Source: Thermaerobacter marianensis DSM 12885
Lineage (GTDB): Bacteria > Bacillota > Sulfobacillia > Thermaerobacterales > Thermaerobacteraceae
DNA length: 64,000 nt
Assembly: GCF_000184705.1 (NCBI RefSeq)
Contig: NC_014831.1
Span: forward strand, 2,170,001-2,234,000
Reading direction: 5' to 3'
The position numbers were made by a program, and so were the translations under genes. The notes beneath the pieces are model-generated. The model was not told the DNA's origin. It saw only the letters and a program-made list of their open reading frames with translations, and made no database searches. Numbering within the stretch: position 1 is the first letter of the stretch; every line of letters starts with the position of its first letter. Positions 4,878 through 25,155 of the stretch are shown in pieces.

Positions 4878-6551
4878 TCAACCTGCGGCCGCGCCGGCGG
4901 CAGGATCGCTCTCCTGACCATCGGCCCGTGCGGCGGAACCCCGACCCCGGCTCCCGCGGGTGCCCGGAGCAGAGGCCGTCGCCGGTGCGGCCGAGTCCGC
5001 CTCCTGTACCCCGGCGAGCGGGTCCCCCAGCCGGGCCCCCCAGGGCGAGTCCCCCTCCGCCACGCCCCCCGCGGCCTCGGCCGGTTCGTCCGACCCGGCC
5101 GGTTCTTCGCCGAGGAACCGCCGCACCCGCTCCTTGAAGGGCTCCCGGTCGTAGCTCGCCACCAGCGCCCCCGCCATCCGCACCGGGTCGCCGAAGAAGA
5201 AGTACTCGTACAGCGCCTGCCGCCCGGCGAAGGCGGAGAGGGCCGCGTCCCACGCCAGCCGGAAGAGCCGCACCCGCTCCACCCCGTCCAGGGTCGCCGC
5301 CTGCAGGTAGCGCTCCACGTCGGCCCGCCCCGGCCCGAACACGTCGCCCTCGGTGGGCAGTGCCATCAAACCGCTGGCCCCCAGCTGGCGGATGATCTCC
5401 ACGAACCGCTGGTAGACCTTGGGGAACCAGTTGCGCCCGGCGTTCAAGGGCCCCCACGCCGGCGTCATCACCCCCCACCGGTTAGGCGCCGCGTCGACCT
5501 CCGCCGCCCGCAGCAGGCTGGCGAGGATTTCCCGGGCAATGACGATCTCCGCGACCTTCTCCTGCACGTGCTGGAACCGCTCGATCTGGATCGCGTCGGT
5601 CAGCAGGGAGACCAGGCCCAGGATGAACTCCGTCTTGGCCAGGTTCTTCACCATCACCTGGTGGGTCATGAAGGCGGTGGCCGAGGTCTCGGCGTACAGG
5701 CCGTTGCAAAGCTCCGGGTGGCCGATCATGAAGCACCGCTCGTAGGGAACCAGCACATCGTCGAAGATCACGATGGCGTCGATCTCGTCGAACCGGGACC
5801 CCAGCGGGTGGTCGAACCGGCTGCGCCCGGCATCGAAGCTCTCGCGGCAGAGGAAGCGCAGTCCCGGCGTGTCGCAGGGGATCGCGAAGGCGTAGGAGTA
5901 GGGCTCGTCCTCCGGCGTCGCCTTGAGCAGGGTCGACGGGAAGACCATGATCTCGTCGGCGATGGGGCCCAGGGTGGCCAGCATCCGGGCGCCGCGGATC
6001 ACGATCCCCTGGTCCGTGTGTTTGACGATCCGCGCCGCCAGGTAGGGGTCCCTCTGCCCCGCCGGCCCCGCCGAGCGGTTGGCCTGGGGGTTGATCAGGG
6101 TGTGGGTCAGAAGCAGGTCGTGCTCCCGGATGTACTCGTAATACCGTCGGATGTTCTCCCCGAAGGCGGGGTCCGCCTGGCCGAACCACTCCGCCGCCCC
6201 CGCCATGGCCACGATGGCCCCGCTGAGGTAGTCGGCCGTCCGGCCCAGCATGCCGCCGCTGTAGTCGGCCCACACCTGCATGAAGGCCCGGCGCCGGGCC
6301 AGGTCGTCCCGGGTGCGGGGCAGCAGGAATTGGACCCCCACCGGGTCGCCGGTGGTCGGCGACGGGTAGGTCATGACGTCGCGAAACCCCGGCTGGTGTT
6401 GCAGGTCGTAGAGCTCCGCGTAGGTCCGCACCAGATTGCGCAAGGCGGGATGATCGGCGATGCGGCCCGTCACCCGCTCCCCGTGGATCAGCACGTCCCG
6501 CCGGGAGGCGTTGAGCGCCTCCACGTAGGCACGGCCGTCCCGTGCCGGCAT
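4878..6551 (-). CDS. hpaB: 4-hydroxyphenylacetate 3-monooxygenase, oxygenase component
   Basis: A 557-residue member of the HpaB flavin-dependent hydroxylase family. It uses FADH2 to convert 4-hydroxyphenylacetate to 3,4-dihydroxyphenylacetate in the cytoplasm. Family landmarks include REHDLLLTHTLINPQ near residue 150 (substrate pocket His), GARMLATLGPIADE (flavin contact) and FAIPCDTPGLRFLC. The last 75 or so residues are an acidic, Ala/Gly-rich tail not needed by the family, whose usual length is about 480-520. ATG 6551 has a perfect AGGAGGGGG site. The partner flavin reductase HpaC is not in the window. Confidence 0.93.
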   Translation of the reverse strand: MPARDGRAYVEALNASRRDVLIHGERVTGRIADHPALRNLVRTYAELYDLQHQPGFRDVMTYPSPTTGDPVGVQFLLPRTRDDLARRRAFMQVWADYSGGMLGRTADYLSGAIVAMAGAAEWFGQADPAFGENIRRYYEYIREHDLLLTHTLINPQANRSAGPAGQRDPYLAARIVKHTDQGIVIRGARMLATLGPIADEIMVFPSTLLKATPEDEPYSYAFAIPCDTPGLRFLCRESFDAGRSRFDHPLGSRFDEIDAIVIFDDVLVPYERCFMIGHPELCNGLYAETSATAFMTHQVMVKNLAKTEFILGLVSLLTDAIQIERFQHVQEKVAEIVIAREILASLLRAAEVDAAPNRWGVMTPAWGPLNAGRNWFPKVYQRFVEIIRQLGASGLMALPTEGDVFGPGRADVERYLQAATLDGVERVRLFRLAWDAALSAFAGRQALYEYFFFGDPVRMAGALVASYDREPFKERVRRFLGEEPAGSDEPAEAAGGVAEGDSPWGARLGDPLAGVQEADSAAPATASAPGTRGSRGRGSAARADGQESDPAAGAAAG

Positions 6552-10581: not shown

Positions 10582-11264
10582 GCCGTCGGCCTCCCCTCTT
10601 CGACGGTGCGGGTCCGGTAGGCGGCGACGGTGCGGAGCTTGTGCTGGCGGGCAAAGGCTTCGATGGTACCGGGTTCCGCCCCCGTTCGAATCAAATCCAG
10701 CAGCTGGCGGTGCTCGGCTATGGACTCCCAACCCCGGTGGGGCACGTAGCGGAAGATCGTGCTGCGGATGCGGTCCAGCCGGTCCCACGTCTGATGGAGG
10801 AGCTCGGTGAGGTAGGGGTTGGGACAACCGGCGTAGATGGCAAAGTGGAACTGGCGGTTGAGCCGGCTGAAGGCCATGACGTCGACGTGCTCCAGGGCCC
10901 GGGCCATGGCTTGGTTGATGGCCTCCAGGTGGTCGAGGTCTGCCGGCGTCAGGTGCGGCGCCGCCGCGGCCGAAGCGGCCCCTTCCAGGACCGCCAGCAC
11001 CTCCATCAGGTGCTCCCACTGGTCGGGGTCGGCGGGCGCCACCTCGGCGCCGGCATGGGCCCGGTAGACCACCCACCCCTCGGCCTCCAGGCGGCGGATG
11101 GCCTCGCGAACGGGTACGGGGCTGACCCCCAGCTCCCGGGCCAGGGTGTCGATCACCAGCCGGTATCCGGGACCGTAGGTCCCATCCAGGATCCGCCGGC
11201 GGATGGCCTGATAGGCCAGTTCCTGCTTGCTGGTCAAGGCCAGCCCCCCTGCGCGACGAACCAC
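10554..11264 (-). CDS. GntR family (FCD subfamily) transcriptional regulator
   Basis: Residues about 10-75 form a winged helix-turn-helix (AYQAIRRRILDG through VREAIRRLEAEG). The rest is an all-helical FCD ligand domain in which RLNRQFHFAIY and SIAEHRQLLDLI supply the usual metal/acid-binding polar residues. First gene of the hpa operon, so it probably controls the operon and itself in response to an aromatic or keto acid. The start is ambiguous: GTG 11264 gives 236 residues, while an inner TTG a few codons later has a G-rich site. The palindromes at 11377 and 11472 are candidate operators. Confidence 0.88.
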   Translation of the reverse strand: MVRRAGGLALTSKQELAYQAIRRRILDGTYGPGYRLVIDTLARELGVSPVPVREAIRRLEAEGWVVYRAHAGAEVAPADPDQWEHLMEVLAVLEGAASAAAAPHLTPADLDHLEAINQAMARALEHVDVMAFSRLNRQFHFAIYAGCPNPYLTELLHQTWDRLDRIRSTIFRYVPHRGWESIAEHRQLLDLIRTGAEPGTIEAFARQHKLRTVAAYRTRTVEEGRPTAWPVRRRGT

Positions 11265-11376
11265 TCCGTGGCATCGAGCCCCCGGGAGCCCTTTGAAACG
11301 TCCGGCCGCGACATCAGAGGCGACACCGGGCGCCGGTGGAGGTTGAGGCTCGTTAAGGGGGTTGTGCCTATTTGAA

Positions 11377-11406
11377 ATCCTATAGGATCCGATTGCGGAC
11401 GGCCAA
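11377..11406 (-). promoter_or_regulatory. Candidate hpa operon promoter with overlapping palindromic operator
   Basis: On the minus strand TTGGCC (11406-11401) and TATAGG (11384-11379) are separated by 16 bases and point at the GntR gene. The -10 lies inside a perfect 12-bp palindrome, ATCCTATAGGAT (11377-11388), placed where a repressor would block polymerase. Binding by the adjacent GntR protein is inference. Confidence 0.5.
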
Positions 11407-11471
11407 GGCCGGTCACGCGAGCTAAACGGCGAAACGAGGGCGGTGAGCAGGTCAACTCGGCCTGATTTCGT

Positions 11472-11483
11472 ATCCTATGGAAT
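11472..11483. promoter_or_regulatory. Second copy of the ATCCTAT operator-like motif
   Basis: ATCCTATGGAAT matches the palindrome at 11377 in 10 of 12 bases and lies exactly 95 bp from it, close to nine DNA turns, so two bound dimers would sit on the same face. The surrounding bases are AT-rich compared with the window. Confidence 0.4.
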
Positions 11484-11666
11484 ATTTTCGCTGGATTTTG
11501 TCTCATGTTCGCCGAAGAAAGGTGACGCCGCCGTGACCAATCCCGCTCCCCCGCAGCCTACGCTGAGATTGAAGAGGACGCGAGACCTGAACCGGCTTAC
11601 GGCGGCGCGAGATCCCGATCGAGGCCTGGGACCTTCCGGCGCACCAGCCCGTGAGGGGGACCGAGC

Positions 11667-12136
11667 ATGGTGGCCCGTGGCAGCGGCCGCACCCCACCCC
11701 GGCATCCCGCCGGATCCCGTCAGGCCCCCGTCCTCCAGTCCTGGGCACCCTGGCTCCTCATGGCGGTGGTCGTCCTCGTCGTCCTGTTACTCTCAACCTG
11801 TTCCACCCTCTCCGGCTCGCCGGTCTCCCCGGAGCCACCCGTTGCCCGCCAGCCTTCGTCCTGCCTGGAACAGAGAGCACCTATGACCCCCGCCGGCGTC
11901 TGGAGCGCCAACGATGCCTTACCGTCGAGGATGCCCGCGGCCCCCTCGCCGCCCAACCCGTCCAGGCCCAGGAGGGCGCCCCCGGTTGGGGGGACTTGGA
12001 GGCCACCCTGGCCTTCGACCGGCCGCCCCAAGGCCGCCAGGGCTGGGTGACCTTCGTCGAACCCGGCGCCGCTGACGGCCGTCCCCTGCATACCCTCAAG
12101 GTCCCGATCTGCTTCCCCCAGGGACCGGAGTCGTGA
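11667..12136 (+). pseudogene. Frameshifted membrane-anchored Gmad2-like protein
   Basis: ATG 11667 has a good GAGGGGG site 8 bases upstream. The first frame encodes a hydrophobic anchor (residues about 28-45) and reaches AGVWSANDAL. The match then moves to another frame near 11925, continuing LTVEDARG, then APGWGDLEATLAFD and a closing block ending HTLKVPICF, with stop at 12134-12136. This order and spacing fit the Gmad2 immunoglobulin-like domain found in spore germination and related surface proteins. A single frameshift (mutation, sequencing error, or less likely a programmed event) would explain it. The gene is alone between the hpa promoter and an NTF2-like gene. Confidence 0.5.
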
Positions 12137-12365
12137 TCCAGGCATCCGGGACTGGGCGGACCCGCGCCGCCTCCGGCGGTCCGTTTCCCCCCGATCGGTC
12201 CCGGTTCACCTGAGGGCGTGTTCCGGTCCCACCGGCCGCCCGTTCCCGGCCGAACCCGGCAGGAATGGATACCCGTGCGGCAAATCCTCCCACAACACGG
12301 GCCGGTCAAGCCGTGCGCGCGGCAGGGGGCGAAGCAAGGAAGGAAGGCCGAAAGGGGGATGCGCC
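12137..12365. other. Short intergenic region before the NTF2-like gene
   Basis: 229 bp with no convincing coding frame. Its last bases carry the ribosome site GGGGG used by the gene at 12366. Confidence 0.4.
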
Positions 12366-12725
12366 GTGGCGGCGGACGATCTCCGATCCAAAGCTTACCT
12401 CTACTACCAGCGGGTTGATGCCGGCGATTTAGAAGGGCTTCTGGCTCTCTTCCACCCCGAGGTCGTCTACGAGCGGGGCGGCCGCCCGCCCATTCACGGG
12501 CTGGACGCGCTGCGGCAGTTCTACATCGGGGAACGCATCGTCCGGGAGGGCCGGCACGAACTGGAGAGGGTGCTGGTCGAAGGGCCCCACGTCGCCGTCC
12601 GCGGCCGTTTCCGCGGCGTGCTCAAGAGCGGCGAGCCCGTGGACGTGCGGTTCGCCGACTTCCACCATTTCCGGGACGGCTTGATCTGGCGGCGGTATAG
12701 CTACTTTATGGACCGGTTCGTGTGA
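12366..12725 (+). CDS. SnoaL/NTF2-like fold protein
   Basis: A 119-residue single-domain protein with the NTF2-like pattern: an N-terminal helix ending YYQRVDAGDLEGLLALFHPEVVY, then alternating strands ending FHHFRDGLIWRRYSYFMDRFV. The family includes small isomerases, polyketide cyclases and non-enzymatic ligand binders, so no reaction can be assigned. GTG 12366 has GGGGG seven bases upstream. It stands alone and converges on the helicase-nuclease gene. Confidence 0.75.
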   Translation: MAADDLRSKAYLYYQRVDAGDLEGLLALFHPEVVYERGGRPPIHGLDALRQFYIGERIVREGRHELERVLVEGPHVAVRGRFRGVLKSGEPVDVRFADFHHFRDGLIWRRYSYFMDRFV

Positions 12726-12748
12726 GGGTGACGGCGTCCAACGCAACC

Positions 12749-12782
12749 CCGTCCTCCACCGGTATGCACCCGAGGAGGACGG
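12749..12782. terminator. Candidate bidirectional terminator hairpin
   Basis: CCGTCCTCC (12749-12757) and GGAGGACGG (12774-12782) are a perfect 9-bp inverted repeat between two convergent genes. There is no T-run and the loop is 16 bases, so termination strength is doubtful. Confidence 0.35.
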
Positions 12783-12860
12783 CGACGCAGGTCAGAGCCA
12801 CCCCAGAGGGGCCGGCGGCAACAGCCCACCCCTCGTTCTACAACAGCGCCCATATTGGGT

Positions 12861-15800
12861 TTAGAGAGCCGCCGTCCACCGGCACGTGGGAAACCGGCTG
12901 CACCCCCAGAACGCCGTCCCCTGGCGCCGCCACCGAAGGTCGCGGTATCCCTCCCCACAATCGGGACAGGGAAGGTGCAACCGCTCCAATACCCCCCGCA
13001 GTCGATTCCGTGGGATGTTCTGCTTTCCGTTGCAACGAGCGTCTGCACATCGGAAGAAGGGCCCATACCGCCCTATCCGGAGGGTCATTGGATTCCCACA
13101 CATCGGACAATGCGCCAGTCCCAGGGCCTCAGCCAGTGCCCGGGTAATGGTGTCGCGTTCTACCCTTGCCGCCTGTTCCCGAAGATGCCTCTCGATACCA
13201 ACGAATTCATAAAGCTGTGCGGCGACGGCTTGCGATGGGATGCGAAACATGATCTCGGACGTTCCGTTGTGGGAAAGAATATTCAGGCTGCCAGTCCATA
13301 CAATTTCATTGTCAATGATCGCAAGCTTTTCGTGTGTTTTTGACACGGTGACCCATTGGACACCCTCATCCTTCATCTGGTTCATCATCGAGACAATGGA
13401 TTCATTATCCTGATGACGGGATACAATGGTCACTTTGACTCCACGGTGTAGCGCCTCCAGCAGGCAACCCATCATATTGGTGAGACGATGTTCGTGGACG
13501 AAGGGGCTGCATATGACCATGCGATCCCGCGCCCGAAAGACATCGGCCATAAACGCGTCGTAAAAGGTGGCATGGTTGTACAGCGCACTTCCATTTACAG
13601 ATGCCAATTCCTTCGACCGATCTACCCGTCGAAACAGCCACGCCAAAACAGTAAGGTTCGACTTATCGAAAAACTGGGCGCCATCGACAACTTCTCCGTT
13701 CTTTTGAACGAATCGGAGAGCCTCCCAAAGTGAATCCTCAGACCGACCTTGAGACTCCATGTAACTCAGGTCTGCCAGGAAGATCAGCTTATCCCTGGCA
13801 CGGGAGCAAGCCACATTGATGAGACGTGTCGCGTCACCAGGATAGGCGCCTCTCAATAGCTTGCCCATCTTGGCCGGCCTTGCATCGGTAAGGTCGAAGA
13901 TGATGACGTCACGCTCAGAACCCTGAAAGCGGTGAACCGTAGCCACCTGAACCCGCTGTGCCGGGAGGCCGAGTTCATCCCGCAGCGCCTGCAGCAAACG
14001 CACCTGGGCTCTGTACGGGGCCACGACACCAATCGAATCAACGCCGTTCTCAAGGAACTCCTTAACCATCGCCATGGCAAGGACGGCATCGTACAAATTG
14101 TACCGTGAATATCCATTGTTGACCTTGGCACACCAGGGATGTAATCCGCTGGTGTCGACGATACAGAGAGCTTGACCGGAACCCGGCGCAACTCCCGTAA
14201 TCGCCTTCAGGGGGGTGATGTCGGCATGGTGCTGAAGTGGATTGCCGTCTCGGCTATACACTAGGACGTTGACCAGCTCGCCGATTTGGGGATGCATTCG
14301 GTACTGTTTCCTTAGAGTCGCCAGGCGGGGATCGCCCTGGCGAACCGTGCCGTTTTCATCGATTATTCCAGCGGTGGTGAAGATATCCTGTCGAAGCCAT
14401 TGGTAAGCCAAAGGATAACGGCCGTTGTCATTGGCGTGCGAGATTGGCGGCAGCTGGCGGAAGTCTCCGGCCACCACCACCCTCCTGCGCCCGAGGCCAG
14501 CACAGAACCATATGTACGGTACGGGGATCATACTCGCCTCGTCGATGACGATGGTCTCGTAGGAGTCCTTGTAGAGCTTGTCCGTCAGCACCACCTTCGA
14601 TAGGGTGGCGCCTACGATCTGAGCCTCGGCGAGCACCTGGTCTTCAATCGATGCGATGATCGCCTCAATTTCCTGTAATCGCCGTTCCATCCGTGCCTTC
14701 TCGTTGGTAAGCCACTTCCACCGTTCCTGTACCTGTTCGTCCGGCGTGGATAGGGTTTTCGTCGCCCTGGCCAGCCTCGCCTCGAGTTGCAAGAGCTCAC
14801 GCTCCACTGTATCGAGGGCTGTGGCCATCTCACCTCGCCGGCGCTCCGCTTCCGCCAGTTGACTGGTGGTGTCTTCCCAGTTCGCCGTTGTGGTCGCGAT
14901 CTGGTGGCGGATCGCCTGGAGGTCGATCCCCTTCCACCACCGCACCAGCGGGTGCATTCGTTCACCCTGAACCAGACGGTCCTGCAGGTCGTGGAGATTC
15001 CGCTGCAGAGATTCCGAGTGGTGCCGAAGTTCTACGATCCGGGTTGAGAGGGCCTGCACCTCAGCCTTGATCTTGCTCACACGGCCTTGTGCCTCACGGC
15101 GAGCCTCGAGCATCCTGATCATCGGCTCCAATCGCCCGATCTCGGCGGCGATCTGGTTTAGAGACGCCTGCGGGACAGCCTGTTCCTCTTTGAGGGGTCG
15201 GGCCTTGCGCTCGACGATCGCTGTTAAGGTCACATCGTGGAGGACCGGGTCGTTGGAGTGGGGAACACCGACCCGGACGATGCGGCCTTCTTCCCGGTCT
15301 TGGGGCGGCAAGGTGCGCAATAGGGCGGTCAGCACTGCGTCGACGGCAGCATTGGTATGCGACGTGACGAGGAGACGCCCCTCCCGCTCCATCAGGGCCT
15401 GGATCAGGGCAGCCAGCGTACGGGTCTTGCCGGTACCGGGCGGGCCCCAGATAAACGTCACAGGGCGGTCCATGGCGCGGTGCACGGCGACCTGCTGCTC
15501 TTCGTTGAGGGCGACACCTGGTGACCCCTTGTGGACTTCAGCTCCATTTTCCACCGAGGCAGGGCCGGATGTACCCTTGCCAAGGGACGGTCCTGACATC
15601 CCCAGAGAACCTAACCCGTCCCCGGCGTCTCCGGGTTCGAATACCTCGGCGATCAGGGGGAGGGAGAGCCGTGAAGGATTTTCCAGGCACTCCTCTAGGC
15701 GTGTCCTCAAGGCTTCAAGGATGTAGGTGGGGCTGACGAACAAACGCGCAGCGGGCACCGTCGGCCCTAAATCGCCGGGCACGGCAATCCGGATCGCACC

Positions 15801-16064
15801 CTCCACCAACGACAGGATCGTCGCCGGGTGCGTGTCGTCTCCGACCTTGAGTTGTGCCGGTGAGTCACTCGGTATGTCGACCTCGGCACCGTCGATCGCG
15901 AAGTCATAGATGTATTGCCCCACGATCTGACTCAGCCGCCTGCCGTCGAGCAACCGATACCCCTGCGCTCCGCCCGACTCCTTGGTTGCTTCGATCTCTT
16001 CGGCGACCGCCTGAATGAGAAGCTGGGTCGTCTTGTTGAAGTCGAACAAGTGCACCACCTGCAT
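12861..16064 (-). CDS. SF1 (UPF1/SMUBP2-like) helicase fused to PLD nuclease motif and zinc ribbons; Mokosh type II-like defence protein
   Basis: A 1067-residue multidomain protein. A superfamily 1 helicase of the COG1112 type has Walker A GPPGTGKT near 206, a long coiled insert about 280-480, motif II VIDEASMIP near 505, QYRMHP near 584, and late motifs VHRFQGSE (about 710) and ACSRARDKL (about 750). Then comes one phospholipase-D nuclease motif, H-x-K-x4-D-x6-GS-x-N, near 908. Two topoisomerase-like zinc ribbons follow (CPMCG...C about 978; CPDCG...C about 1030). Helicase plus PLD in a single chain is the plan of the type II Mokosh anti-phage system as I recall it; the zinc ribbons add a nucleic-acid clamp. 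Codon use is visibly less GC-rich than the neighbours, suggesting transfer. The ATG lacks a clear ribosome site. Function is inferred, not shown. Confidence 0.85.
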   Translation of the reverse strand: MQVVHLFDFNKTTQLLIQAVAEEIEATKESGGAQGYRLLDGRRLSQIVGQYIYDFAIDGAEVDIPSDSPAQLKVGDDTHPATILSLVEGAIRIAVPGDLGPTVPAARLFVSPTYILEALRTRLEECLENPSRLSLPLIAEVFEPGDAGDGLGSLGMSGPSLGKGTSGPASVENGAEVHKGSPGVALNEEQQVAVHRAMDRPVTFIWGPPGTGKTRTLAALIQALMEREGRLLVTSHTNAAVDAVLTALLRTLPPQDREEGRIVRVGVPHSNDPVLHDVTLTAIVERKARPLKEEQAVPQASLNQIAAEIGRLEPMIRMLEARREAQGRVSKIKAEVQALSTRIVELRHHSESLQRNLHDLQDRLVQGERMHPLVRWWKGIDLQAIRHQIATTTANWEDTTSQLAEAERRRGEMATALDTVERELLQLEARLARATKTLSTPDEQVQERWKWLTNEKARMERRLQEIEAIIASIEDQVLAEAQIVGATLSKVVLTDKLYKDSYETIVIDEASMIPVPYIWFCAGLGRRRVVVAGDFRQLPPISHANDNGRYPLAYQWLRQDIFTTAGIIDENGTVRQGDPRLATLRKQYRMHPQIGELVNVLVYSRDGNPLQHHADITPLKAITGVAPGSGQALCIVDTSGLHPWCAKVNNGYSRYNLYDAVLAMAMVKEFLENGVDSIGVVAPYRAQVRLLQALRDELGLPAQRVQVATVHRFQGSERDVIIFDLTDARPAKMGKLLRGAYPGDATRLINVACSRARDKLIFLADLSYMESQGRSEDSLWEALRFVQKNGEVVDGAQFFDKSNLTVLAWLFRRVDRSKELASVNGSALYNHATFYDAFMADVFRARDRMVICSPFVHEHRLTNMMGCLLEALHRGVKVTIVSRHQDNESIVSMMNQMKDEGVQWVTVSKTHEKLAIIDNEIVWTGSLNILSHNGTSEIMFRIPSQAVAAQLYEFVGIERHLREQAARVERDTITRALAEALGLAHCPMCGNPMTLRIGRYGPFFRCADARCNGKQNIPRNRLRGVLERLHLPCPDCGEGYRDLRWRRQGTAFWGCSRFPTCRWTAAL

Positions 16065-16248
16065 CGGTGTTGGGGTAGCACCGTCAATCGGGCCACCTGG
16101 CTGGGCAGTAGGAAGAGTTTGACCCCGTGACGGCGAATGTACCGGTAATCAACTCCATCCTACTGGTTGGCGACAATTCGTGGGAAGGGTGCAGGTGTTC
16201 GCAGGTTCCAGCACCTTCAACCGGATTCGCCATGGGGAGGAGCCCGCC

Positions 16249-20851: not shown

Positions 20852-22114
20852 CTACGGTGCCGAGGCCGTCAGCTGGTAACCCCGCACGTGGAAGGTGACC
20901 ACCACCTCGGGCCGCAGGTCCCGCAACCGCTGCCGCCACTGGGTCTGGACGGCCCGCCAGGCGCGGGGGTCCTGACGGTACAGGGCCGCCCCGAAGCCCA
21001 CGGGGTCGACGCCCAGGGACGCCGACCGCTCCAAAGCGGCTCGGATCTGGGCCCGGGCTTGCTGGGCCGCCGCCTGGCCCACCGCCCGGACCCGTGCCAG
21101 GTCGACCCGCCCATCCGGGCACTGCCACTCCAGCACGACGCCCGCCAGATCGACTTGAAGTTGCAGCCGGGGCATGGCGCCACCCCCCGGCGAGGCTGGC
21201 GCTCCGGCAACGCCGGCCGCCGTCCCACTGCCGACCACCCGAATCCGGGCCTTGTTCCGGTCAACCTGCAACGACACCACGGCGGCGCCGGCGCCCCTGC
21301 CCGTCCCGGCCGCAGCCCGCGCCGCCCCCGTCCCTGCCGGGCACGCCACCACCATGGTGAAGGGGTGCGCCTCCCCCCGCGCCATGAGGAGGCCGTTGTC
21401 GAGGGGCGGCGAGAGGAACCCCGCCAGCCGGTCCCGCCGGAACAGGGCGATGCCTCCAGGTGCCGGGCTCACCGCCCCGCTGGCCTGGGCCGAGGTCACC
21501 ACGGGCAGGAAGGGGTCGGTGCCGGGGGTATCCAGCCAGCGCAGGACCGTGTTGCCGTCGACGCCCCGCAGGGTGCCGGGCCGGTTCTTCCGGGTCAGGG
21601 CGTCGAAGGAGCGGGCCAGGGAGCGATCCAGGGCCGGCTGCAGCTGCGTCAGCAGTTCACCCGCCTCCCCGCGCACCACGTACAGCGACGCCCGCCGCTC
21701 CACGCGGTAGCCGCGGGAGATCATCTCCAGCAGCGGGAGCAGGCCAGTGCGGGCCACCGCCTCGCCCACCAGGATGTGGTCGGCGAAGGACCAGCGCACC
21801 TCCCGGGGGATGGCCGCATCCAGGGCCTGCGCGGCCGCCCGCGGGGCCGGCCCCGTGGCGGAGCGGAACAGGTTGGTGCGGGTGACGCCCCCCGCCGTCC
21901 CCGCCCCGCCGCCTCCGACCGAGGCGGGAAGGACCAGTTCGGGCACCGGCACCGCCACCGTCCAGCGGTAGCCGCCTTCGGGCCGGCGGTCTAAGGCCGC
22001 CACGGCGACGAAGGCCAGGTCGTTGACCTCGTTGTACCCCCAGCACCCCCCCAGGAGCAGGGCGCTCAGGATCAGGACGAACCCGGCCCGCAGCCGCGCC
22101 GCCACGGCGCTCAC
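20852..22114 (-). CDS. gerC: Spore germinant receptor subunit C (Ger(x)C lipoprotein)
   Basis: A 420-residue exported lipoprotein: basic start, hydrophobic core, lipobox LLGGC with the lipidated Cys at 24. The family pattern continues with WGYNEVNDLAFVAVAALDR and a C-terminal half ending in a strand-rich block. It anchors to the inner spore membrane as the outer subunit of the germinant receptor. Its GTG overlaps the gerB stop (GTGA). A Gly/Ala-rich insert lies around residues 290-330. Convergent with the hydrolase gene at 20052. Confidence 0.9.
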   Translation of the reverse strand: MSAVAARLRAGFVLILSALLLGGCWGYNEVNDLAFVAVAALDRRPEGGYRWTVAVPVPELVLPASVGGGGAGTAGGVTRTNLFRSATGPAPRAAAQALDAAIPREVRWSFADHILVGEAVARTGLLPLLEMISRGYRVERRASLYVVRGEAGELLTQLQPALDRSLARSFDALTRKNRPGTLRGVDGNTVLRWLDTPGTDPFLPVVTSAQASGAVSPAPGGIALFRRDRLAGFLSPPLDNGLLMARGEAHPFTMVVACPAGTGAARAAAGTGRGAGAAVVSLQVDRNKARIRVVGSGTAAGVAGAPASPGGGAMPRLQLQVDLAGVVLEWQCPDGRVDLARVRAVGQAAAQQARAQIRAALERSASLGVDPVGFGAALYRQDPRAWRAVQTQWRQRLRDLRPEVVVTFHVRGYQLTASAP

Positions 22115-23283
22115 GGCTCCTCGCCCGGGGCAGAGCGGCCTCGCCGGGACCTGGTCGGGCTCCCTCTCCGGCGCCGCGTCGGGGGCCCGCGGTGCGACGG
22201 ACTTGCGGGCTGGGCCGACCGGACGGGCAGCAGGCCCGCCGCCACACCCGTCACCAGCCCGGCCAGCCCCACCAGCGGCCACACCCGCGTGAACTGCCAG
22301 TCCCAGCGTTCGCTATCGGGAAAGAGCCAGACCGCCACCGCCACGGTCACCCCCGTCATCACGGCATGCACCCCTCCTTGCCACCGCTCGCTGAGCCCGA
22401 AGGTCACCCGGGCCGTCACCCCGGCCACGTAGACGAACAGGGCCAGCTTGAGGACGATGCCCAGCAGCCAGGCCGAGATGGTGATGACCTCCGGCCGCGA
22501 CAGCACCGGCCCCGGCCGCGCCAGCCGGGCCAGGATGAAGGTGGGCGCCACCGCCCGCGCCGTCTCGCCGGGCCCCAGCACCACGATGCAGGCCATCGCC
22601 ACCCCCGCCAGCAAGACCACCTTGCCGGCCGCCGCCAAGGCCAGGGGCCGCACCAGCCGGTCCCGCGACGGGAGCCCGTCGGCGAAGTAGGTCAAGATCA
22701 GGGTTTCCGCCGCCGCCGCGAGCATCACCAGCGCGCCGCGGAGCAGGGGCAAGGGGCCCCGCTCCAGCACCGGCAGCAGTTGGACCCACTCGGCGTTGCC
22801 GGGAAGCAGGATGGCCAGGTTGAAAAGGAGGGCCAGCACCATCACCGGCAGCACCAGCAGAGCCAGCCGCGCCTGGGTCTCGCGCCCGTACGCCACCAGC
22901 ACCCAGGTGGTCAGGGCCAGGGTGGCGTGGAAGGCCCACCCCGGCGTCTCCGGAAAGACCACCACCATGAGCAGCACCGTCTCCCCCAGGATCCCGCCGG
23001 CGTGGTAGGCCGCGTAGGCCACCAGCACGGGAAGAACCAGCCACCGGGCGAAAGGGTGAAAGCGCACCCGGTCCAGGGGCGTCAAGCCCGGCCGGAAGTA
23101 GAAGGCATACCATGCCCCCACCACCAGAGCCACCACCGGCGTACTGACCAGCACCGCCAGCCAGGCGTCCCGGCCCGCCGCGGCCGCCAGGGAGCGGGGC
23201 AGGAAGAACACCAGGGTGGCCAACACCGTGATGATCAACAGGGCGGCGATGGACGCCGGGTCTACCTGATCGCGCCGCGGCAT
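22111..23283 (-). CDS. gerB: Spore germinant receptor subunit B (amino acid permease-like)
   Basis: 390 residues, about ten membrane segments, with the endospore GerAB/APC-type fold. It is the likely ligand-binding membrane subunit of the receptor. The C-terminal 35 residues are Arg/Pro-rich and extend past the membrane region. ATG 23283 has GGGGAGG 6 bases upstream. Order gerA, gerB, gerC on the minus strand matches the classical operon, spacing 78 bp then a 4-bp overlap. Confidence 0.92.
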   Translation of the reverse strand: MPRRDQVDPASIAALLIITVLATLVFFLPRSLAAAAGRDAWLAVLVSTPVVALVVGAWYAFYFRPGLTPLDRVRFHPFARWLVLPVLVAYAAYHAGGILGETVLLMVVVFPETPGWAFHATLALTTWVLVAYGRETQARLALLVLPVMVLALLFNLAILLPGNAEWVQLLPVLERGPLPLLRGALVMLAAAAETLILTYFADGLPSRDRLVRPLALAAAGKVVLLAGVAMACIVVLGPGETARAVAPTFILARLARPGPVLSRPEVITISAWLLGIVLKLALFVYVAGVTARVTFGLSERWQGGVHAVMTGVTVAVAVWLFPDSERWDWQFTRVWPLVGLAGLVTGVAAGLLPVRSAQPASPSHRGPPTRRRRGSPTRSRRGRSAPGEEP

Positions 23284-23361
23284 GCCGTTCCTCCCCAGCC
23301 GGTGGCGGGAACTCGCCCGCTGCCCGGGTCGACGCCCGGCCGGTTCCCGGCCGGTTCGTCC

Positions 23362-25155
23362 TCACGCCCCCTGATCCGCGCCCTCCCGTCCGATCAGCGG
23401 CGGCTTGCCGCGCATCATCACCCAGGGGGCGCGGATCAGGGTATCCTCCCAGCCCTGGGGCCGGTACGGCGCGTAGGGCGTCAGGTACGGCACCCCCACG
23501 GACCGCAGGGAGGCCATGTGGGCCACTACGATGAGGAATGCCGTGACCAGCCCGTACATCCCCAGCACCGTGGCCACCCCCAGGAACACGTAGTGGAGGA
23601 TCCGGAAGGGGATGGCGGCTGAGAAGGTGGGAAGGGCGAAGGCCGCCATGGCGCTGGCACCGATCAGGATCAGCGTGGGCGCCGTGACGATCCCCGCTCG
23701 CACCGCCGTATCGCCGATGACCAGACCGCCCACGATGGTCAGGGCGCCACCCACCTGCCGCGGGAGGCGCGTCGTGGCCTCCCGCAGGATGTCGAAGACG
23801 AAGCTCAGGCCGACAGCCTCAAGGGCCGTGGGGAAGGGCAGCGTCTCCCGGGAGGCCGCCAGGGTGAAGAGGAACTCCCGCGGGATCAGCTCCTGGTTGT
23901 AGGTGGTCACCGCCACGTAGAGCGGCAGGCCCACCGTCATCAGCAGCACGGCGAAGAACCGCACCACCCGCAGCGTGGTGGCGAAGGGCCAGCGCAGGTA
24001 GTAGTCGTCGGGCGACTGCAAGAGGTCCCAGAACTGCAGCGGCACCACCACGGCGAAGGGCGTGCCGTCCAGCAGCACCGCCACCCGCCCCTCCATCAGC
24101 CCCGCCGCCACCACGTCGGGCCGCTCCGTCAGCCGTGCCTGGGGGAAGATGGACACCGGCCGGTCCTGCAGCAAGGCCTCCACCTGTTCTTCCGAAAAGA
24201 GCAGGTCCCAGGGCGCCGCCTTCAGCCGCCGCCGCACCAGGGCCACGGTCCCCGGGTCCGCCCGCCCCGCCACGTACGCGATGGCCGCCCGCGTGCGGGT
24301 GAGCCGCCCCGTGTCGAGCTCTTCGATGCGCAGGTAAGGGGTGCGCAGCCGGCGTCGCAGGGCGGCGGTGTTGACCCGCAGCACCTCGATGAAGGCGTCC
24401 CGCGGCCCGCCGATGGTGCCCTCGGTGGCCGGGTCGTCCACGCTGCGGTGCTCGAACTGGCGCGCGTCGATGAGCCAGGCCTGCACCGGCTTGGACACCG
24501 CGGGGTCGTGCATCGCGAACCCGTCCGAACGGTCCACCGCCACCAGGGCGGAGCCTTCCAAGAGACCGTCGACGGCCTCGGCCAGCCTGGTGACGGGACG
24601 AACCCGGCCCCCCGGCAGCAATCCCCGGTCCAGCCACCCGCTGGCCTTGGTCGCGGACCCCGGCAGCCGCTCCAGGAGCGGGCGGAGGATGAACTGGTTG
24701 AGCAGCTGGTCGCCCACCAGCCCGTCCACGTACACCACCAGCACGTCCGCGGCACCCGGCCGGCGGATCGGCACGGCCACCAGGTCTGCGGGGCGGCCCA
24801 GGGCCTCGCGCAAGAGCAGCTCGAGGCGCGAGGTGGCGGCGGGGATGGCTTCTTGCAGGGCCAGGTCGGCCGCCCAGCGGTCGACCTGGCCCAGAAAGTC
24901 TTCCAGGTGCTCCCGCAGGCGGGTGGCCGGGGACTCGGCCAGGGGCGGCTGCCCGCTCAGCGGCGTGGTCGACCAGGCGGGAAGGCGGGGGTTGACGCGG
25001 TCGAACCGGCCGGCGGCCCCGCCCAGGCCCCGATCGGGCTTCCCGGGTTGCCGTCCCGTCCGGGTCTGGGCGGAACCGGCCCCATCCCGCGCCCTGGAAT
25101 CCAGGGCCGGTGCCGGCTGGTTCCTCGAGCTGGGTCGCTCCTCCACGTCCCTCAC
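23362..25155 (-). CDS. gerA: Spore germinant receptor subunit A
   Basis: 597 residues: a long N-terminal soluble region and a C-terminal part with about five membrane segments. Family landmarks include DLLVVYVDGLV-like strand VLVVYVDGLVG, the block SPDDYYLRWPFATTLRVVRF and LFTLAASRETLPFPTALEA. Residues 1 to about 75 are a Pro/Arg/Gly-rich extension not expected in the family (usual length about 480-520), so the true start may be later than GTG 25155. Present only in endospore formers, so it is the strongest taxonomic marker in the window. Confidence 0.93.
   Translation of the reverse strand: MRDVEERPSSRNQPAPALDSRARDGAGSAQTRTGRQPGKPDRGLGGAAGRFDRVNPRLPAWSTTPLSGQPPLAESPATRLREHLEDFLGQVDRWAADLALQEAIPAATSRLELLLREALGRPADLVAVPIRRPGAADVLVVYVDGLVGDQLLNQFILRPLLERLPGSATKASGWLDRGLLPGGRVRPVTRLAEAVDGLLEGSALVAVDRSDGFAMHDPAVSKPVQAWLIDARQFEHRSVDDPATEGTIGGPRDAFIEVLRVNTAALRRRLRTPYLRIEELDTGRLTRTRAAIAYVAGRADPGTVALVRRRLKAAPWDLLFSEEQVEALLQDRPVSIFPQARLTERPDVVAAGLMEGRVAVLLDGTPFAVVVPLQFWDLLQSPDDYYLRWPFATTLRVVRFFAVLLMTVGLPLYVAVTTYNQELIPREFLFTLAASRETLPFPTALEAVGLSFVFDILREATTRLPRQVGGALTIVGGLVIGDTAVRAGIVTAPTLILIGASAMAAFALPTFSAAIPFRILHYVFLGVATVLGMYGLVTAFLIVVAHMASLRSVGVPYLTPYAPYRPQGWEDTLIRAPWVMMRGKPPLIGREGADQGA

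Follow-up and report, generated by a model that had tools for sequence, protein, structure and literature searches.

A Mokosh-like helicase–nuclease in Thermaerobacter marianensis, probably horizontally acquired and a candidate for single-protein defence

The window analyzed here, a stretch of 64,000 nucleotides from Thermaerobacter marianensis DSM 12885, contains a gene for a single protein that combines a UPF1-like helicase, a phospholipase D (PLD) nuclease domain and two zinc ribbons. The gene is best explained as an accessory, probably horizontally acquired helicase–nuclease that most likely protects the cell from phages or other foreign nucleic acid. A probability of roughly 0.6 is given to this reading, in which the protein is Mokosh-like without being MkoC. 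In its favour are the intact helicase and HKD motifs, the domains modelled by AlphaFold2 and the relatives recovered by Foldseek; the best PADLOC matches, which are to Mokosh, and the colinear alignment with MkoC; the foreign composition, the replaced locus and the patchy distribution, including absence from the sister species; and lastly relatives adjacent to Pgl/BREX genes, BrxC/D-like genes after one close relative (L036) and a parallel with the CoCoNuTs (PMC11090510). Against it count the lack of defence genes beside the gene and their scarcity near its relatives, a housekeeping gene order around two relatives (L033 and L034), and a core branch in Bacillaceae whose HKD motif is dead.

The open reading frame is complete, with an ATG start, 1067 codons for amino acids and no internal stop. 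No good Shine-Dalgarno sequence was seen upstream of this ATG; in the family alignment, the relatives begin close to this position. From the N-terminus, the protein consists of an OB-fold/stalk domain, an SF1B (UPF1-like) helicase with a coiled-coil insert, a PLD domain with a single HKD motif, and two C4 zinc ribbons of the Top1 type, laid out as follows:

12861..16064, minus strand: helicase–PLD–zinc ribbon protein P0001, 1067 residues (open reading frame and Pfam; same architecture in relatives of 35–42% identity)
15681..16040, minus strand: OB-fold/stalk of the UPF1 1B type, residues 9–128 (AlphaFold2, Foldseek, conserved in the family alignment)
15201..15518, minus strand: first half of RecA1, residues 183–288, with Walker A GPPGTGKT at 15423–15446 (PF13086, alignment)
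14625..15200, minus strand: coiled-coil insert in RecA1, residues 289–480 (AlphaFold2 helices, motif spacing)
14385..14624, minus strand: second half of RecA1, residues 481–560, with motifs II (DEAS) and III (GDFRQLPP) (Pfam, alignment)
13695..14336, minus strand: RecA2, residues 577–790, with QYRMHP, TVHRFQGSE and NVACSRA (PF13087, alignment)
13200..13583, minus strand: PLD nuclease domain, residues 828–955 (PF13091, Foldseek)
13281..13334, minus strand: HKD motif HEKLAIIDNEIVWTGSLN, residues 911–928 (sequence)
13011..13118, minus strand: zinc ribbon 1, residues 983–1018 (PF01396/PF13408, cysteines)
12873..12977, minus strand: zinc ribbon 2, residues 1030–1064 (PF01396, best stretch 1033–1064)

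The Pfam matches are AAA_11 (1.1e-36), AAA_12 (2e-27), PLDc_2 at residues 844–951 (6.5e-11) and Zn_ribbon_Top1 in two stretches (2.8e-9). The set of SF1 motifs is complete: GPPGTGKT (207–214), TSHTN (234–238), DEAS (508–511) and GDFRQLPP (533–540) in the N-terminal half of the helicase, then QYRMHP (587–592), TVHRFQGSE (709–717) and NVACSRA (750–756) in the C-terminal half. The sole HKD motif, H911-x-K913-x4-D918-x6-GS926-x-N928, is intact, as are all cysteines of the first (C986/C989/C1006/C1011) and second (C1033/C1036/C1055/C1061) ribbon. These motifs and matches bear out the full SF1 helicase, single HKD and two C4 ribbons that had been read from the sequence in the original prediction. 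The N-terminal OB/stalk domain and the insert of about 190 residues between motifs Ia and II had been missed.

An AlphaFold2 model of the full chain, built from 27 sequences, has a pLDDT of 85.7 and a pTM of 0.76. The OB/stalk domain (9–128) is modelled with pLDDT values mostly between 75 and 96 and is followed by a disordered linker (147–182). The insert forms three helices (289–369, 382–435 and 442–480). With the full chain, Foldseek retrieved Senataxin (SETX), IGHMBP2, UPF1 and Dna2 over about 820 columns, with E-values of 3e-32 to 8e-27. The helicase fold, including the OB/stalk, is common to the window protein and to Senataxin/Sen1, IGHMBP2, UPF1 and Dna2, but these lack a PLD domain, the nuclease of Dna2 being of the PD-(D/E)xK type. 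When a second model, of the C-terminal part (pLDDT 80.5), was used, Nuc (1byr), NucT (6ehi) and Zucchini (4ggk) were among the best matches. They are single-HKD nucleases that act as dimers. The PLD fold and the one HKD motif are shared with them; however, they stand alone without a helicase, whereas the PLD domain of the window protein is fused to one.

The original prediction likened the protein to type II Mokosh, and the likeness of plan stands. The closest PADLOC families are MkoA (204 bits, 1e-60), MkoC (153 bits, 2.4e-45) and, for the PLD domain and weakly, MkoB (36 bits, 1e-9). In MkoC, too, one chain carries a COG1112-type SF1 helicase and, after it, a PLD domain with a single HKD, and motifs I and II are likewise separated by a long insert. 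With hhalign, the two proteins are colinear over the C-terminal half of the helicase and the PLD domain (E = 1.2e-25). Membership in MkoC is the part of the prediction that was not borne out. No end-to-end match was obtained with the MkoC profile (PADLOC PDLC03924): the match of 153 bits has its best stretch at positions 823–1106 of 1136, which corresponds to the C-terminal half of the helicase and the PLD domain, whereas genuine MkoC proteins from Agrobacterium and Acetobacter score 1240 and 916 bits over positions 5–1135. On the MkoA profile, a genuine MkoA from Allocoleopsis scores 919.8 bits. Neither hhalign nor BLASTP gave a credible match in the window protein to the N-terminus of MkoC (about 250 residues before Walker A), which differs from the OB/stalk, and the two C-terminal ribbons have no counterpart in MkoC by hhalign. 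In a tree of the helicase region, the window protein lies inside a clade of nine rows (support 100) and the two MkoC references form a separate and long branch of 2.0 changes per site, likewise with support 100, the deep forks of this tree being unsettled. It is thus very unlikely that the protein is a genuine but divergent MkoC. As to the two-gene type I (MkoA and MkoB, PDLC03920/PDLC03922), the helicase is nearest to MkoA, but the window protein is one chain without the kinase N-terminus of the reference MkoA. Judged from sequence comparison, "Mokosh-like" appears a fair label, the likeness being one of plan and of distant descent of the domains.

A second parallel is found in the CoCoNuTs, predicted immune components with UPF1-like helicases, an OB-stalk, a coiled-coil insert after Walker A and nuclease effectors (PMC11090510). 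The CnuH helicases of CoCoNuT types II and III share with the window protein the UPF1-like core, the OB-fold on a stalk and the coiled coil after Walker A, and CnuH is a large family with varied nuclease effectors (PMC11090510). The protein might on these grounds be a detached CnuH-type helicase dependent on McrB/McrC-like or other partners whose genes lie elsewhere. CoCoNuTs, however, also comprise McrB/McrC-like proteins and effectors that are separate or fused to Vsr, whereas here the helicase chain itself includes a single-HKD PLD domain and the ribbons. Among the neighbours, whose products are an amidase, a SnoaL-like protein, DHDPS and a GntR regulator, there is no McrB-like GTPase or McrC-like gene, and no recurring partner gene was found among the relatives with an active HKD. 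A detached CnuH is accordingly a most improbable explanation.

The composition of the gene is foreign to its surroundings. Its GC content is 0.59 overall and 54–63% along its length, against about 70% around it, and its GC3 of 0.688 is the lowest among the 37 window genes longer than 200 codons (mean 0.864, s.d. 0.063). The gene is monocistronic, with a divergent amidase gene upstream and a convergent SnoaL-like gene downstream; no known defence gene was found among the neighbours. Lower GC than the neighbours and a solitary position among unrelated genes, both claimed beforehand, are therefore confirmed. The genome consists of one contig of 2.84 Mb, and none of the other genomes of the genus (0 of 3) has the gene. 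Comparison with the sister species G003 delimits one further feature:

11233..16245, no strand assigned: species-specific segment with the SnoaL-like gene and the helicase–nuclease gene, replacing a 4.3-kb ger operon of G003

The flanks of this segment align at 85–90% identity to G003, where they enclose positions 5001–9343 of L030, a site that encodes GerA, GerB and GerC. Since the ger operon lies between the same flanks in G003, the gene sits on a segment of about 5 kb that is specific to its species. Searches at the borders of this segment turned up neither a tRNA nor an Rfam RNA nor a convincing repeat, and no integration mechanism is therefore claimed. Together with the composition, the replaced locus indicates that the gene is accessory and probably horizontally acquired. 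Within the window, a diverged ger-type operon is located at 20852–25155, 5–9 kb from the segment and on the opposite strand relative to the ger operon of G003. It is only 66% identical to the latter and is probably a paralogue of it.

Relatives were not detected by a genome-wide scan with the single sequence, the patterns being too specific; wider members were recovered by a scan built on the family alignment. Full-length relatives of 35–42% identity are scattered over genomes of the class, in which 20 of 154 genomes have a family match at 1e-40, some of these matches being fragmentary or remote. More widely, the family extends to Planctomycetota, Hydrogenedentota, Desulfobacteraceae, Actinomycetota and Bacteroidota and to cyanobacterial plasmids. 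Plasmid searches with two relatives yielded nothing close beyond two cyanobacterial plasmids, and no phage-borne relative emerged from viral contigs or phage records, where the only matches were weak ones to helicases or topoisomerase ribbons. The window protein appears to be a member of a broad, patchy family of its own and not of MkoC. One relative (L041:226-3491, on a contig shared with L052) is split into overlapping helicase and PLD–ribbon reading frames, as a result either of a frameshift or of a two-gene form resembling Mokosh type I. In two others (L045:7968-10598 and L061:8977-11550), the double zinc ribbon is kept and the HKD motif is unrecognizable, which indicates that ribbons and nuclease are separable modules.

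When 88 proteins encoded near 16 relatives were compared with defence models, few matched at 1e-20, and most relatives have no defence neighbour. Two distant actinobacterial relatives are found beside or inside Pgl/BREX type 2 clusters (L054:1-8722 and L102:380-17397, with PglW and PglX, and BrxD, PglZ and PglX). The Nocardia relative, present in 1 of 201 genomes of its family, adjoins PglW (1445 bits) and PglX, and the Streptomyces relative sits between PglZ/BrxD and PglX. The close relative L036 is followed by a gene of 283 codons, then by two genes for BrxC/D-like ATPases. Homologous genes of about 280 codons lie just downstream of the close relatives with a degraded HKD motif in L036 (11602-12453, minus strand) and L039 (10020-10673, plus strand), and no Pfam or PADLOC match was found for the one in L036. 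L036 and L039 possibly represent a multi-gene variant in which the PLD nuclease is replaced by another effector. The Pgl/BREX and BrxC/D neighbours, judged without matched control genes, are only suggestive of a defence context.

The HKD motif was lost in at least three lineages: the members from Bacillaceae and Lachnospiraceae, a member from Frankiaceae, and L036/L039. In the alignment, the members that lost it keep a remnant of the fold and the aspartate. An HKD-dead form of 748 residues, without coiled coil and without ribbons (L055, L157–L168), is present in 32 of 36 species of one Bacillaceae genus (that of L055), and its neighbours are conserved in most of 12 inspected loci. This branch looks, from its sequence and gene order, like a cell gene, an apparent case of domestication or else an ancestral cell gene. 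Its near-universal and syntenic occurrence in the genus implies that housekeeping roles exist in the family.

The same branch lends weight to the view that the window protein is a maintenance enzyme, Dna2- or Senataxin-like, involved in repair, R-loop or RNA turnover and passed between lineages without an immune role. The nearest folds, the paucity of defence neighbours and the conserved order of L033 and L034 (one genus) by ZapA, PolX and MutS2 genes are also in line with this explanation. It is nevertheless considered rather doubtful, as the HKD-active form is scattered (20/154 genomes of the class, 0/3 sister species) and compositionally foreign, and two relatives are in or beside Pgl/BREX loci. 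A housekeeping position conserved across relatives, which the original prediction had named as evidence against defence, is seen for the HKD-dead Bacillaceae side branch, but not for the HKD-active form.

The state of the HKD motif parallels the length of the insert. The spacing between motifs I and II is at least 273 residues in all 14 scorable rows with an active HKD; for nearly all other family members it does not exceed 176. None of the 20 rows with a short insert has an active HKD, some being devoid of any PLD domain, and the insert is present without a full HKD in two rows. This pattern suggests that the coiled coil may couple the motor to the nuclease. Few independent events lie behind this lead: three independent pairs were available for comparing coiled coil and HKD state, about two were concordant, and the sign test fell short of significance.

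If the defence reading is correct, the protein could act as follows. The OB/stalk and the UPF1-like core, assigned by predicted fold, would load onto single-stranded nucleic acid and move along it 5′ to 3′ at the expense of ATP, this polarity being that of the UPF1/IGHMBP2/Dna2 class. The double zinc ribbon, by its Top1 type, would hold or recognize the single strand, and by analogy a role as a nucleic-acid sensor is plausible. The long coiled coil may pair two chains or relay the movement of the motor. Two single-HKD PLD domains would then form one active site, as in Nuc and Zucchini, and cut the engaged strand, which would stop replication or expression of the invader. Replication intermediates containing single-stranded DNA are slightly favoured over RNA as the substrate.

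Tentatively, the family may constitute an undescribed form of one-protein immunity, with a UPF1-like motor, a coiled-coil arm, a Nuc-like PLD domain and a double ribbon, from which the Bacillaceae branch would have been domesticated, losing nuclease, coiled coil and ribbons and keeping the helicase as a core gene. In the portions of the literature available, no mechanism is described for MkoC, and how UPF1-like motors fire nucleases is unsettled for Mokosh and the CoCoNuTs. If protective, the protein would be a compact one-gene helicase–nuclease from a high-GC, likely thermophilic lineage of Bacillota, convenient for structures of UPF1-like motors firing PLD nucleases. With its patchy nuclease-active members and its core nuclease-dead branch, the family offers a testable example of the passage from immune-type helicase to cell gene, or the reverse.
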